A stretch of 57,451 bases of DNA. Source: Paludibacteraceae bacterium (GTDB lineage: Bacteria > Bacteroidota > Bacteroidia > Bacteroidales > Paludibacteraceae). The notes below the pieces were generated by a model. It searched no databases and had not been told where the DNA came from. It saw only the letters and a list, made by a program, of their open reading frames with translations. The DNA lies in NCBI GenBank assembly GCA_016285885.1, contig JAEERP010000016.1, positions 1 to 57,451 of the forward strand. Direction: 5' to 3'. The translations under genes and the position numbers were made by a program. This document shows, in pieces, positions 46,683-51,893 of this stretch. Numbering within the stretch: position 1 is the first letter of the stretch; every line of letters starts with the position of its first letter.

Positions 46683-48140
46683 ATGATAGAGAATCAATTT
46701 ACAGAAGACGAACTCAACGAAGAGATTGAGGAGCAAGAACAACCGATCATCAAGGTGATTGGTGTGGGTGGCTGCGGCGGTAACGCTGTCAACTACATGT
46801 ACAACATGGGTGTCAAGAACGTGAATTTTGTTGTCTGCAATACGGATAAGCAGGATTTGCGTAAATCTCCTGTCCCTACAAAAATCCAATTGGGTGAGAA
46901 GGGCTTGGGCGCAGGCTGTAAACCTGAAGTGGGCTTGCAGGAGGCGCAGAAGTCTATCGAGGAGATCAATGCTATCCTGGACGATCATACCGAGATGGTC
47001 TTCATTACTGCGGGTATGGGCGGTGGTACGGGCACGGGTGCCGCTCCTCTCATCGCCAAAACAGCGAAGGAGAAGGGTATACTGACTGTCGCTATCGTGA
47101 CGATCCCCGCACTCTTCGAGGGTGACGAGAAGGTCAACCAAGCTTTGATGGGCGTCGAGGAGATGAAAAAGAATGTGGATGCGATTCTCATCATCAATTC
47201 CCAGAAGATCTTGGATATGTATGGCGATATGTTCTTGGACGATGCCTACTCCAAGGGCGATGAGATCCTGGCTACCGCCGCGAAAGGCATTGCGGAGATC
47301 ATCACACTCTCTGGACGTATGAACATAGATATGGCGGACGTTAGAACGGTCATGACGGATAGTGGTGACGCTATCATGGGCGCCGCTAAGGCGAATGGTC
47401 AAGACCGTGCCATCTCTGCTATCCAACAGGCGCTGGATTCTCCTTTGTTGGTCAGCACCAACCTCTCCGGCGCTAAGAATATCCTCTTGAATATCACTCA
47501 TAGCAAAGAGTGCAGAATCACTACCAACGAGGTGACCATCATCCGTGATTACTTGTCTAAACAGATCGACGGTAGCACGAAGATCATTTGGGGTGTCATG
47601 CAGGATGATACCTTGGGCGATAACTTGGGCGTGACCATCGTGGCTACGGGCTTCGATTTCTCCAAGCAACGTGGCGCTTCCCAGTCACAACGTCCTTCCG
47701 CCCCACAACATGTGTCGCTGAATGGAAACGTGAACAGCATGCCTAACGGACACGCTTCCGTTAACCAACAAAATAATATCGTCTTCACGGTCTCTCCGAA
47801 CCAACAGCAGAGGAGCGGTCAACCGTTCCAACAACCACAGACTTCCCGCCCGGTGGAGCACCAGCAGGATCCTTATGGCTTCTACTACAGGGAGGAGCGC
47901 AACGAGGGGAGAAACGATAGAATGGGCTATTCCCGCCCGAGCGAAAAACAGATGGAACAGATGCCTCATGTCTCTCTGGACATGAGCGATAATGACATGA
48001 GCACGCCTTCGTACCAAAGAGGCAATACTCAGTTCGACGTGCAGACGAAACCTAGCCAAATCTCCCTGATGGATATGGATGAGGAGAACAACTCTATCTC
48101 CAACAAGAGAAATGGCTTCTTGTATGATAATGTGGATTGA
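46683..48140 (+). CDS. ftsZ: Cell division GTPase FtsZ (long form)
   Basis: The 485-residue protein has the tubulin G-box GGGTGTG at residues 113-119 and a complete T7 catalytic loop N214-I-D216-M-A-D219. The GTPase core ends near residue 325. A Q/N/P-rich linker of about 100 residues follows, then the Bacteroidota C-terminal motif TPSYQRGN (441-448), and a further 37 residues ending in FLYDNVD. FtsZ forms the division ring. This copy has all the features of a fully active FtsZ. A second, shorter ftsZ begins five bases after its stop. Confidence 0.98.
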
Positions 48141-48144
48141 TTGA

Positions 48145-49278
48145 ATGGTGGAGACGAAGGATGACATAGTCATTTGCCCGGTCATAGACAACCAGTTCCC
48201 CCCGGTCGTGAAGATCGTGGGCGTGGGTGGTTGTGGCGGTAATGTGGTTCAACATGTCTATGAGTCTGGCTTGAAGGAGGTCACTTTCGCGGTGTGCAAC
48301 ACAGACCGCAAGGCGTTGCGTGATTCGTCGGTTCCTGTAAAGGTGCAACTGGGTGACGGCTTGGGCGCTGGTGGCGATCCTGAGGCTGGACTACGTATCG
48401 CCGAGAAATGCTCGGAGGATATCTACCAACTCTTCGAGGATGCTCCCGAAATGGCTTTCATCACTGCCGGCTTGGGCAAGGGTACGGGTACGGGCGCGGG
48501 CCCATTCGTGGCGCAGACCGCTAAGTCTCGTGGTATCCTGACGGTCGGCTTTGTCTGTTTGCCTCCTGACATCGAGGGGGAGCAGAAGATGAAACTCGCC
48601 TTGGAGGGATTGGAGCAGATGCGCAAGAACACGGATGCGGTCGTGGTGGTGGATACCCAGCGGGTCTTTGACCTCTATGATGACCTCTCCATCGAGAATG
48701 CGTTCGATAAGGCGGATGATATCATGGCGGACGCCGCAAAGGCGATGGTGGATATCGTCACGAAGAGCGGACGTATGACGATCGATATGGCGGATGTCCG
48801 CACTGCCCTGCGCAACGGTGGCGATGTGGTGATGGCTTACGGAAAGGCTTCGGGCGAACATCGTATCGCGGAAGCTATGTCAAACGCTTTGAATTCCCCT
48901 TTGCTGCTGCAACCGAAACTCTCTGGCGCAAAAGATATGCTCCTGAATGTCATGACTTCCAAACAGAACGCATTGTATACTTGGGAGCTGAACGAAATTA
49001 AGAACATTCTCCGTAATAAGCAAGGGGTCGATAGCTCGACGAACCTTATCTTGGGATATATGTTGGATGAGGGCCTCGGGGACGAACTGAGCGTGACAAT
49101 CGTCGCGACGGGTCTCTCCCCTGTGATCCGTGAACATGTCTCCCTCGATTGGGAGGAGAGGACTTCTCCGAAGAGTGCTCTCCCCAAACATGAACATGTC
49201 GCCTTCCAAGGCTTGGGCGATATGTCGGAGGAGGATATGATGTGGCCTGCCTATGACAGACTGAATCATCGTAAATAA
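48145..49278 (+). CDS. Second FtsZ paralogue (short linker, altered GTP-site residues)
   Basis: The 377-residue protein aligns with FtsZ over the whole core ([35 protein letters not shown]). The G-box is GKGTGTG (111-117), with lysine in place of the second glycine. The T7 loop is T212-I-D214-M-A-D217, both aspartates kept but asparagine replaced by threonine. The disordered linker is nearly absent (residues about 330-350), yet the tail DMMWPAYDRLNHRK keeps the P-(S/A)-Y-x-R-x-N motif. GTP binding and copolymerisation with FtsZ are likely; efficient hydrolysis is uncertain. It is cotranscribed with ftsZ. It reads as an intact gene, not a decaying one. Confidence 0.95.
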   Translation: MVETKDDIVICPVIDNQFPPVVKIVGVGGCGGNVVQHVYESGLKEVTFAVCNTDRKALRDSSVPVKVQLGDGLGAGGDPEAGLRIAEKCSEDIYQLFEDAPEMAFITAGLGKGTGTGAGPFVAQTAKSRGILTVGFVCLPPDIEGEQKMKLALEGLEQMRKNTDAVVVVDTQRVFDLYDDLSIENAFDKADDIMADAAKAMVDIVTKSGRMTIDMADVRTALRNGGDVVMAYGKASGEHRIAEAMSNALNSPLLLQPKLSGAKDMLLNVMTSKQNALYTWELNEIKNILRNKQGVDSSTNLILGYMLDEGLGDELSVTIVATGLSPVIREHVSLDWEERTSPKSALPKHEHVAFQGLGDMSEEDMMWPAYDRLNHRK

Positions 49279-49308: not shown

Positions 49309-49758
49309 ATGGCTTTATTTGATCAAATCAGCGAGGACATCAAAAAGGCGATGCTCGCTCGTGACAAAGTGAAATTGGAGGCGCTCCGTGGCGTCAAGAA
49401 GGAATTCATTGAGGCGAAGACCGCAAAGAATGCGGATGGTGAGTTGAGCGATGACACAGCCTTGAAGATCCTCCAAAAGATGGTGAAGCAACGTAAGGAA
49501 TCCGCTGCTATCTTCACGGAACAAAACCGCCCTGAATTGGCGGAAAATGAGTTGGCTGAAGCCTCCGTTATCGAAGCCTACTTGCCTAAACAGATGAGCG
49601 ACGAGGAACTGACCGCCGCATTGAAGGATATTATCGCTGAGGTGGGCGCCACTTCCGCAAAGGAGATGGGTAAGGTGATGGGCGTCGCCTCTAAGAAACT
49701 CGCCGGTAAGGCTGACGGTAGAGTGATCTCCGAAAAAGTTAAGACTCTTCTGGCTTAA
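49309..49758 (+). CDS. yqeY: GatB/YqeY domain protein
   Basis: The 149-residue protein is a stand-alone YqeY domain: MALFDQISEDIKKAMLARDK, VKLEALRGVKKEFIEA, IEAYLPKQMSDEEL and KEMGKVMGVASKKLAGKADG. The domain also occurs at the C-terminus of GatB and binds tRNA there; its separate role is not clear. It closes the dcw cluster. Its last codons and stop lie in a hairpin (CTTCTGGC / GCCAGAAG, 49747-49770) that precedes the first two-hairpin module. Confidence 0.95.
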   Translation: MALFDQISEDIKKAMLARDKVKLEALRGVKKEFIEAKTAKNADGELSDDTALKILQKMVKQRKESAAIFTEQNRPELAENELAEASVIEAYLPKQMSDEELTAALKDIIAEVGATSAKEMGKVMGVASKKLAGKADGRVISEKVKTLLA

Positions 49759-49780
49759 CCTTGCCAGAAGTCTCTCTGCG

Positions 49781-49851
49781 TGGTCGTCTTGCGATTCCCG
49801 ACCATGCGAATTGCCACCGAGGCTCTTTGACTTCGGTGGCTTTTGTTTTTT
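49781..49851 (+). terminator. Two-hairpin module, copy 1 (yqeY/dcw 3' end)
   Basis: Hairpin 1 is TGGTCG (49781) / CGACCA (49799) with a 12-base loop containing TTGCGATTC. Hairpin 2 is GCCACCGA (49813) / TCGGTGGC (49833-49840), followed by a T-rich tract, so the module ends as a rho-independent terminator. Copies 2 and 3 (50243, 50688) keep the loop but change the stem in a paired way. Confidence 0.8.
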
Positions 49852-49934
49852 AAGGGGAATTATGTCAATTTATATTGACTTATGGTAATTAATTGACTTT
49901 TTGAAACCTGTGTTTAAAAAAATCATTCTCAAAG

Positions 49935-49966
49935 TTTGACGTTTATCGATTTTATTCTTATATTTA
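49935..49966 (+). promoter_or_regulatory. Candidate promoter of small RNA A
   Basis: TTTG at 49935-49938 and TATATTTA at 49959-49966 with 20 bp between them, one base off TAnnTTTG. No protein gene follows for 1 kb. Confidence 0.45.
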
Positions 49967-49972
49967 TATAGT

Positions 49973-50308
49973 GAGAAGTTGACAGAAGAGTTTGCCATAT
50001 TTCTTATGGAACAAAGTGAATCGAAATGATACAAGATTTTGTGATAGAGCTAATTATGTGCGACTGTAAGTGAATGTTGTGCCTTGTTGGATCTGTTTTC
50101 GTATTTGCGTTGTTCTTACTATGATATTATTGACGAATGTATACGCGGATGAATAGTCGGTGCACTTGGCTCTTGCACGAGAAGCACTCTTTTAATCCAT
50201 TGTGGATGAGGCGGAATTAATTGATTCATAGCCTTTTATTGTATGGTTGTTTTGCGATTCCCAACCATGCGTAATGCCACCGAGGCTCTTTGGCTTCGGT
50301 GGCTTTCC
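49973..50308 (+). ncRNA. Candidate small RNA A ending in two-hairpin module copy 2
   Basis: A gene-free stretch of about 335 bases between a candidate promoter and a module ending in a terminator hairpin. No open frame longer than about 11 codons with a plausible start is seen. The 5' end is estimated as a few bases after the -7 element. Confidence 0.4.
50243..50308 (+). terminator. Two-hairpin module, copy 2
   Basis: Hairpin 1 is ATGGTTG (50243) / CAACCAT (50262-50268) with the same 12-base loop type, TTGCGATTC inside. Hairpin 2 is GCCACCGA / TCGGTGGC (50276-50303) with a loop almost identical to copy 1. The T-tract is short (three T). Confidence 0.75.
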
Positions 50309-50416
50309 ACTCACTTTTTGGATGCTATTTCATCGTATGATATATTTGTTAGAAAAATTTTTAATTTTTTTAGTGAATTTTTTGTATAAAAATATAGTTA
50401 TTTATTGCGAAAAGAT

Positions 50417-50424
50417 TATATTTG
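50417..50424 (+). promoter_or_regulatory. Candidate promoter of small RNA B
   Basis: TATATTTG is a perfect TAnnTTTG -7 element in AT-rich DNA. No clear -33 TTTG is seen at 18-20 bp. Confidence 0.4.
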
Positions 50425-50430
50425 CATTGT

Positions 50431-50754
50431 AAGATTACGTCACCGATTGGCATTTGTCATTGGTGGCATATGGAAGGATAATATATAAATCTTCTAGTCT
50501 TTGCGATAAATATATTGTGAAATTGATTTAAGTCTTTTGTTCTTTTCGCCCTGGAGATGGACGGTCTTTGAGTGTTCATTCCGATGAGGGTTGAATCGCT
50601 TCGGTGAATAGAGGATTTATTAGAAAATATTTGAAACACCTTTTATTTGTAAACTTGCTCATGACATTTTTTGTCATTCGAGCGATGGGTATGGTTGATT
50701 GCGATTCTTGGCCATACCAAAAGCCATCGGAGGATTCCCTTCGATGGTTTTTTG
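50431..50754 (+). ncRNA. Candidate small RNA B ending in two-hairpin module copy 3
   Basis: About 325 gene-free bases from the -7 element to the third module. Near its 5' end a hairpin can form between CACCGATTGGC and GTCATTGGTG (about 50440-50465). A 91-codon open frame at 50604-50879 crosses the module and the palindromes and does not look coding. Confidence 0.4.
50688..50753 (+). terminator. Two-hairpin module, copy 3 (diverged)
   Basis: Hairpin 1 is GGTATGG (50688) / CCATACC (50712-50718) extended by G-U pairs, loop containing TTGCGATTC. Hairpin 2 is CCATCG (50724) / CGATGG (50742), followed by six T, a good terminator. The stems differ from copies 1 and 2 on both sides, so pairing is kept. 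Confidence 0.75.
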
Positions 50755-50805
50755 TCGCCTGTGTGATACCAATTTCCCCTAATGAGAATGCGTTGTGCCC
50801 TATTG

Positions 50806-50831
50806 TAGAGACGCAAAATCTTGCGTCTCTA
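50806..50831. repeat. GAGACGC palindrome
   Basis: TAGAGACGCAA / TTGCGTCTCTA around AATC. A related palindrome lies at 50870-50889 and another at 51915-51940. This family is a common interspersed repeat in Bacteroidota. Confidence 0.75.
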
Positions 50832-50869
50832 TTCGTTAATGGTTGGGATGTTGGATTGGTTTATTGTGC

Positions 50870-50889
50870 AGACGCATAGCATTGCGTCT
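50870..50889. repeat. GAGACGC palindrome, second copy
   Basis: AGACGCA / TGCGTCT around a 6-base loop; the right flank continues as CTAC as in the first copy. Confidence 0.65.
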
Positions 50890-50915
50890 CTACGGTACGG
50901 CGGCAGATTCCGCAT

Positions 50916-50956
50916 GAAAAAAAGAGGGCGGAAGGCCCAATGACCTTCCGCCCTCT
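50916..50956 (-). terminator. Terminator of serC-serA
   Basis: AGAGGGCGGAAGG (50923) pairs perfectly with CCTTCCGCCCTCT (50944-50956), 13 bp, loop of eight. On the minus strand it is followed by seven T. It lies 20 bp after the serA stop. Confidence 0.92.
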
Positions 50957-50975
50957 GTAGGATTATCCGTGTGGA

Positions 50976-51893
50976 TTATTTGTTCACTCTGAACTTTTCG
51001 TTACCGTTCTTGATGAAGTCTACGATTTGCTTAGCGGCTGCGATACCTGCGTTGGTGTTGGCCTCTGTGGTCTGCGCACCCATCTTCTTAGGCGTTGAGA
51101 AGTAACGGCCCTCGAACTTAGCGAATTCGTCGTTGGCAGCTGGCATGATGTCCGTGATGTACTTCAAATCCTCGCGCTCTGCCATCAACTTGAGCAACCC
51201 AGCCTCGTCGATGACCTCCTTGCGGGCTGTGTTGATCAACACGGCGCCCTTCTTCATCTGACCTACCATCTCGTAGTTGATGCTGTTCTTGGTCTCTGGT
51301 GTCGCAGGGATGTGCAATGATACGATGTCGCAAGTCTTGAACAACTCGTTCTGGTTGGCTACTGCCTTCACACCGGCTGATTCGATGGCTGATGCAGGGC
51401 AGAACGCGTCGTATGCGTATACGTCCATGCCGAAGCCCTTTGCGATGCGCGCTACGTTGCGGCCTACGTTTCCGAATGCCAACAAACCGAGCTTCTTGCC
51501 CATCAACTCAGAGCCGGACTTTCCGTTGTAGAAGTTACGTGCGGCGAATACCAACAAACCGAATACCAACTCAGCTACTGCGTTGGCGTTCTGGCCTGGA
51601 GTGTTCATCACGCATACGTTGTGTGCGGTGGCTGATGCCAAATCCACGTTGTCGTAACCTGCGCCGGCACGTACGACGATCTTCAGCTTCTTGGCTGCGT
51701 CGAACACTTCAGCGTCGATCACATCGCTACGGATGATGATTGCCTCAGCGTCGGCTGCGGCGTCCAACAATTGCTTCTTCTCGGTGTATTTCTCCAAAAG
51801 GACCATGTCGAATCCGGCAGCGTCCAACTCTTTCTTTATACCGTCGATGGCTACTTTAGCGAACGGTTTTTCTGTGGCTACTAATACCTTCAT
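50976..51893 (-). CDS. serA: D-3-phosphoglycerate dehydrogenase, short form
   Basis: The 305-residue protein has the NAD-binding pattern LGLLAFGNVGRNVARIAKGF, substrate/catalytic arginine in NTARKEVIDEAG and VRAGAGYDNVDL. It lacks the C-terminal ACT or ASB domains of long PGDHs, so serine feedback through ACT is not expected. Where most PGDHs have TPHIG with the catalytic histidine, this one has STPKKMGAQT, a lysine, as in the lysine-type (type III) enzymes described from Entamoeba. It catalyses the first step of serine synthesis. serC is upstream in the same unit. Confidence 0.93.
   Translation of the reverse strand: MKVLVATEKPFAKVAIDGIKKELDAAGFDMVLLEKYTEKKQLLDAAADAEAIIIRSDVIDAEVFDAAKKLKIVVRAGAGYDNVDLASATAHNVCVMNTPGQNANAVAELVFGLLVFAARNFYNGKSGSELMGKKLGLLAFGNVGRNVARIAKGFGMDVYAYDAFCPASAIESAGVKAVANQNELFKTCDIVSLHIPATPETKNSINYEMVGQMKKGAVLINTARKEVIDEAGLLKLMAEREDLKYITDIMPAANDEFAKFEGRYFSTPKKMGAQTTEANTNAGIAAAKQIVDFIKNGNEKFRVNK

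Follow-up and report, generated by a model that had tools for sequence, protein, structure and literature searches.

Genomic context of the array

The stretch of DNA analyzed here (hereinafter the window; 57,451 nucleotides) is an entire contig of a Paludibacteraceae genome. On its plus strand, a run of genes comprising ftsA, two ftsZ paralogs and yqeY ends at position 49758, and two minus-strand genes, which we take to be serA and serC on the basis of their Pfam domains and gene order, are oriented toward yqeY from positions 51893 and 53049, respectively. The gap of about 1.2 kb between yqeY and serA contains an array of three copies of a two-hairpin module (49776-49846, 50239-50309 and 50687-50754; Table 1). 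Copy 1 begins 17 bases past the yqeY stop codon, copy 2 lies at a distance of 463 bases from it and copy 3 at a further 447 bases. A first-pass annotation of this DNA, which had proposed the module, placed its start at 49746; this position overlaps the final codons of yqeY.

The tandem ftsZ pair upstream (46683-49278) encodes two proteins, each with the GTPase and C-terminal domains of FtsZ (Pfam). Among the array-bearing species described below, the identity of the second ftsZ is 66-76%, compared with 94-97% for yqeY and about 99% for serA and serC (partial in one species, G011), i.e., a fast-evolving FtsZ is encoded beside strongly conserved genes. The interval between the array and serA contains palindromic GTAGAGACGCAA...TTGCGTCTCTAC repeats (50803-50893), which are far more numerous after the array in another array-bearing genome (G001); similar palindromic repeats are found downstream of yqeY in a relative without the array (G002), and they look like a dispersed repeat family. 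On the minus strand, a perfect 13-bp inverted repeat followed by a T-run (50923-50956) represents an ordinary serA terminator.

Table 1. Features of the yqeY gene and the downstream array (positions in the window)
Feature	Positions	Strand	Basis or remark
yqeY (GatB/YqeY-like); copy 1 on its 3' end	49309..49758	+	ORF; Pfam YqeY PF09424, E 1.4e-47
Copy 1, hairpin 1	49778..49807	+	Loop TTGCGATTC at 49789-49797
Copy 1, hairpin 2 and T-run; presumptive intrinsic terminator of yqeY	49813..49850	+	
TTTAAAAAAATCAT; possible upstream promoter element or regulator site	49913..49926	+	Alignment; invariant in 7/7 species
Putative RNA2 promoter: TTTG, 20 nt, TATATTTA	49935..49966	+	Published consensus (PMC7366714)
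Putative small RNA 2 (RNA2)	49970..50310	+	Kept in 7/7 species; 5' end predicted from the -7 box
AACAAAGTGAATC, 5' part of RNA2	50010..50022	+	Invariant
Copy 2, hairpin 1	50241..50270	+	Loop TTGCGATTC at 50252-50260
Copy 2, hairpin 2, terminator-like	50276..50303	+	T tail short, interrupted
Putative RNA3 promoter, -7 box: TATATTTGC	50417..50425	+	Invariant in 7/7 species; without TTTG at -33
Putative small RNA 3 (RNA3)	50430..50757	+	Kept in 7/7 species; 5' end predicted
28-nt invariant block AAACACCTTTTATTTGTAAACTTGCTCA, candidate seed	50634..50661	+	7/7 species
Hairpin 0, GCTC...GAGC, with inner GACA/TGTC stem	50657..50683	+	Outer stem in 7/7 species, no variation; inner in 6/7
Copy 3, hairpin 1	50689..50717	+	Loop TTGCGATTC at 50699-50707
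Copy 3, hairpin 2 and T-run, terminator	50723..50753	+	

Structure and phyletic distribution of the module

Each copy consists of a hairpin with a UUGCGAUUC-type loop followed by a terminator-like hairpin. All three fold far better than dinucleotide shuffles (z of -6.02, -6.41 and -5.03 for copies 1-3; for none of them did any of 200 shuffles fold equally well). The two-hairpin copies reported by the first-pass annotation are indeed present, as are the T-runs that it noted for copies 1 and 3 and, by implication, denied to copy 2. A 3' hairpin followed by a T-run, as expected of an intergenic small RNA (sRNA), is clear in copy 3, and copy 2 has the hairpin with a short T tail. The unit is larger than the module described in that annotation: copies 2 and 3 terminate conserved stretches of about 330-345 nt and copy 1 is the 3' end of an mRNA.

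The phyletic distribution of the array was explored with two covariance models. The first (R1), built from the three window copies, retrieved these copies from the 3.75-Mb genome at 92.9, 92.7 and 73.9 bits, with the next among the 8 listed matches at 19.2 bits. Among 61 genomes, this model yielded three strong matches each (48.5-92.9 bits) in 7 of the 16 genomes of the same genus (G000, G001, G005, G007, G010, G011 and G015), and all other matches were at most 28.5 bits; these weak matches came from 9 genomes outside the seven, and the alignment of one match (L053) and the score of another (L058) were examined. The second model (R2) was derived from 21 modules, namely the three window copies and 18 from the six further species, in a MAFFT alignment made without structure, and was run over 200 genomes of the family. 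It recovered 21 strong matches (60.7-82.8 bits), exclusively in the same seven genomes, with the next best at 32.2 bits; because 25 first-look candidates were scored per genome for speed, faint relatives might escape this search. Six genomes outside the seven had a single match each (29.0-32.2 bits), and in all six the alignment corresponds to a simple terminator, the first hairpin being poorly formed or empty; one of the six (L185, in G003) retains CGAUUC in a weak form of that hairpin. The 26-nt core of the conserved RNA3 block (Table 1; up to three mismatches) was found at one site in each of the seven genomes and in none of the other 193.

Of the 80 named loci retrieved by YqeY, one contains the array, from a Paludibacteraceae genome from yak omasum (L074). 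An ortholog of yqeY (84-100% identity) was identified in 13 of the 16 genus genomes, seven with the array (94-100%) and six without it (84-91%); in the latter, other sequence lies downstream of yqeY (in G009, the contig stops about 400 bases on). The seven array genomes group together in the yqeY tree (support 83/99; 88% of 200 bootstrap trees), which implies either a single gain of the array in this clade or its loss around it. The array is restricted to a narrow clade.

Covariation and the hairpin-1 loop

An alignment of the three window copies contains two-sided changes in 4 of 20 pairs, which by itself is modest evidence for covariation. To this extent the contention of the first-pass annotation that the stems are changed on both sides holds, but the stems quoted in its support (TGGTCG, ATGGTTG and GGTATGG) are overlapping segments of one nearly identical stem that, being cited in different registers, seemed more different than they are.

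The alignment of all 21 modules is more informative: 98.0% of 397 cells are paired against a mean of 93.5 in shuffles, two-sided changes are seen in 8 of 19 pairs (4.2 in shuffles; 2 of 500 as high), 24 cells contain compensatory changes (mean of 8.2; none of 500 as high) and the covariation score is 0.355 compared with 0.250 (again, none of 500). Altogether, five covariation measures were reached by either none or two of the 500 shuffles; kinship alone can lift measures above such shuffles, with the two-sided counts being rarely affected, according to the tool. Pairing falls to 33.5-54.6% when the partner columns are slid by 1-3 positions. In hairpin 1, 100% of the cells pair (two cells, gaps in one module, excluded), and in hairpin 2, 96.2%. 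The excess of compensatory cells and the loss of pairing in the slid columns bear out the earlier proposal of a selected RNA structure, and the further copies on which that proposal depended exist, 18 of them in six species, with clear covariation. The module is real and under selection.

The hairpin-1 loop had been described as fixed. The exact TTGCGATTC is found in 15 of the 21 modules, with one of the six exceptions in copy 1, one in copy 2 and four in copy 3, the loop of which drifted in 4 of the seven species; TGCGATTC is present in 17 module loops and GATT in all 21. A likeness to the tRNA T-loop, for which the pattern is UGNRA, was considered and set aside: the letters fit in 18 of 21 modules, and the closing pair is absent in copies 1 and 2.

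Putative small RNAs encoded in the array

Alignment of the seven arrays reveals conserved islands within poorly conserved surroundings. Outside of yqeY, the invariant runs of at least 9 columns are TGCGATTCC in the copy-1 loop, TTTAAAAAAATCAT, AACAAAGTGAATC, TGCGATTCCCAACC in copy 2, CGGTGGCTTT, TATATTTGC, the 28-nt block and AAAGCCATCG in copy 3; the 28-nt block, which the first-pass annotation missed, is the best-conserved piece of the array. By share of invariant columns, the RNA3 block (32/35) and the stretch containing the RNA3 promoter (23/30) exceed the RNA2 promoter (15/33), the middles of the two RNAs (46/208 and 33/160) and the spacer that precedes the RNA3 promoter (16/86). As a yardstick, 14 of the 53 four-fold sites of yqeY are invariant and 39 vary.

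PMC7366714 gives the promoter consensus of Bacteroidota as TTTG / TAnnTTTG. The -7 box of RNA3 matches TAnnTTTG exactly and reads TATATTTG in all seven species; that of RNA2 has the form TAnnTTTA (TATATTTA in six species and TACATTTA in one) and is preceded, about 20 bases upstream, by the -33 TTTG, which is present in 7/7 species before RNA2 only. Measured from just after the -7 box to the terminator, RNA2 spans 344-345 nt and RNA3 326-341 nt in the seven species. A conserved Bacteroidota -7 box precedes each of the two stretches that end in copies 2 and 3, which makes two small RNAs likely, and to judge from these sequence features, RNA2 and RNA3 are quite probably transcribed as separate molecules. 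TTTAAAAAAATCAT, which is flanked by short inverted repeats in some species, lies about 10-25 bases upstream of the -33 box of RNA2.

RNA2 and RNA3 have the 3' module in common and, in several species, also CCTTTTATTYGTAAA before the module (RNA2 of G000 and G015 differs). The 5' stem of RNA2 is paired throughout in six of the seven species and its hairpin 0 pairs well in about five; the 5' hairpin of RNA3, as drawn, is broken in most species. The 5' hairpin and hairpin 0 display little covariation, and we regard the RNA2 5' stem, both hairpins 0 and the RNA3 5' hairpin as suggestive.

The frame over the RNA3 block (50604-50680) reads as a small hydrophobic peptide (KHLLFVNLL), and LLFVN is readable in some RNA2s. 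A scan of ATG starts downstream of yqeY detected no ORF of at least 8 codons that starts at one column in all seven species; the best shared column, within the copy-2 hairpin, serves six species and yields divergent peptides.

No Rfam family reached the gathering score in the window, and a search of positions 49740-50960 at E up to 10 returned 19 matches at chance level, none of which reached gathering or bore the name FopS; neither tRNA nor tmRNA was detected in the window. Integron attC sites and retrons were set aside on their anatomy. In all seven species, serA lies behind the array in convergent orientation (in G011, the contig includes the gene's end only), so neither RNA is a leader of serA.

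Potential targets and binding partners

The first-pass annotation suggested that the loop may be bound by a protein or another RNA. In the seven array genomes, we searched for contiguous complements of the candidate seed (14 letters, at most one mismatch) and of the loop (11 letters, exact). The seed complement was found at 18 places, 7 in the array itself and 11 elsewhere, and the loop complement at 25, 10 in the array and 15 elsewhere; reversed-pattern controls gave a similar number of places, and no site of either kind is kept clade-wide in these genomes. Some non-array places form orthologous pairs: two lie within long ORFs (L206/L207 and L204/L210), one falls in an intergenic region in 2/7 genomes with the sites at non-matching positions (L200/L202), and the others are L218/L229 and L224/L234. 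Only one complement was found at a start codon, that of the loop at a gene that is presumably ribF, judging from its sequence features (L230/L233, in two species); it is exact in G015 and G000 and changed in G001, G005, G007, G010 and G011, and was rejected as a target. Also rejected was a kissing interaction of the loop with the 5' element of RNA2, which is no better than in shuffles (278 of 1000 as low).

The genome encodes one RRM-1 protein (a single match, L236). According to PMC11697453, RRM-1 proteins bind sRNAs in Bacteroides, and RbpB, the RRM-1 protein studied there, prefers single-stranded regions.

Possible functions of the array

Tentatively, we favor a scenario in which the array encodes a clade-specific pair of paralogous sRNAs with a 3' domain common to an mRNA. 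There would be three transcription units with this domain in common: the 3' UTR of yqeY would be the first, and paralogous small RNAs of about 330-345 nt, each with its own promoter, the second and third. The common domain, hairpin 1 with its UUGCGAUUC-type loop plus the terminator hairpin, would terminate transcription and is probably a common handle that confers stability or is used by a binding partner. More weakly, and by analogy, RNA2 and RNA3 could act on messages in trans, with conserved unpaired stretches rather than the hairpin loop doing the pairing; foremost among these stretches would be the 28-nt block that precedes the RNA3 hairpins, a part of which, CCTTTTATTYGTAAA, is also found in several RNA2s. 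This sRNA reading draws on the analogy with FopS and GibS and on the RRM-1 protein in the genome; its target-pairing step is unsupported by the searches for contiguous complements. A bolder form of the scenario, which we consider rather unlikely, is that the stem-loop and terminator constitute a common 3' address on the yqeY mRNA and two new sRNAs, which would be read by a dedicated RNA-binding factor or a shared RNA partner such that the three RNAs are stabilized or silenced together, with the 28-nt block of RNA3 as the main effector of a young, clade-private regulon.

Pairing with mRNAs might, however, be beside the point if one RNA-binding protein recognizes the hairpin-1 loop and either stabilizes the three RNAs or is titrated on them. 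The same stem-loop on the 3' end of an mRNA and on two RNAs with differing middles, the GATT kept in all 21 loops, the lack of conservation of loop complements elsewhere and the presence of a single RRM-1 protein are all compatible with this possibility, which fits the facts nearly as well as sRNA pairing; nevertheless, the copy-3 loop drifted in 4/7 species, a single site per RNA would make a poor sponge and, in PMC11697453, RbpB is described as preferring single-stranded regions. We estimate that this explanation is possible but on the unlikely side.

Less probable is that the double-hairpin terminator of yqeY was duplicated as insulation, with the intervening DNA being mere spacer. The intrinsic terminators of copies 1 and 3 are good, the region is compact and the middles of the intervals are little conserved, but termination does not require the kept sequence of the hairpin-1 loop, the terminators are distant from the invariant blocks and -7 boxes, and the middle copy has a poor T-run.

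A coding or dual function of RNA2 and RNA3, with a peptide of about 20 residues encoded over the RNA3 block (e.g., MIWKIYKKHLLFVNLLTT) and the similar LLFVN in RNA2, is in our view improbable, more so than the insulation scenario. By reading, 6/7 species keep this frame open across the block, and some of the RNA2-RNA3 differences within their common stretch are synonymous with respect to it. However, an ATG-started ORF exists in 4/7 species, in one of which (G010) it is frameshifted within the block, the ends vary, and the block is invariant at all bases, third positions included, whereas most four-fold sites of yqeY vary.

The tandem repeats and clade-restricted spread might evoke the dispersal of a mobile or selfish repeat whose stems are random, but this explanation is very improbable: all copies occupy one orthologous place, three per genome, with none elsewhere in the 7 genomes at a strong score, the stems are non-random, and the transposable-element origin that the first-pass annotation named as a counter-explanation found no matching plasmid or phage record (for viral contigs, one exact 22-letter pattern was searched, with no match).

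Relationship to known RNAs

The putative RNA2 and RNA3 would form an sRNA family that is apparently undescribed in Rfam (at the gathering score) and in the literature searched. To our knowledge, descriptions of sRNA families from Bacteroidales other than Bacteroides are scarce. With two paralogous putative sRNAs and an mRNA that have one covarying 3' domain in common, and with the array absent at the same place in near relatives, the locus is a handy case for the study of sRNA birth and of 3'-end recognition in a phylum in which Hfq-type control is unclear.

Like 6S RNA (RF00013), which PMC7366714 records in Bacteroides, RNA2 and RNA3 would be noncoding RNAs of a few hundred nucleotides, but the array is not matched by this family. 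The RF00013 model produced no 6S match in this genome, nor in a Bacteroides control, so this search has little power.

The closest parallels are FopS and GibS of Bacteroides, which, according to PMC11697453 and PMC7366714, are RNAs of about 65-70 nt and about 145 nt, respectively, with a 5' seed and dispersed copies. The array resembles them in comprising multicopy paralogous sRNA candidates in Bacteroidales, mostly intergenic and one derived from a 3' UTR, with sigma-ABfr-type -7 boxes, a 3' terminator hairpin and a conserved stretch predicted to be unpaired. It differs in the tandem arrangement, in the conserved-loop hairpin before the terminator and in length: the distance of about 330-345 nt from -7 box to terminator does not fit the 65-70 nt of FopS with its 5' seed (designated R1). 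Also unlike FopS, the structure of which is reported to be deposited in Rfam, the array has no Rfam match.

With intrinsic (Rho-independent) terminators, the array shares hairpin 2 and the T-run of copies 1 and 3, to which it adds an upstream hairpin with a kept loop; the ordinary terminators of the relatives score at most 32.2 bits. Finally, copy 1 is comparable to 3'-UTR-derived sRNAs in that it could be released from yqeY, whose 3' end it forms, whereas copies 2 and 3 have -7 boxes of their own.
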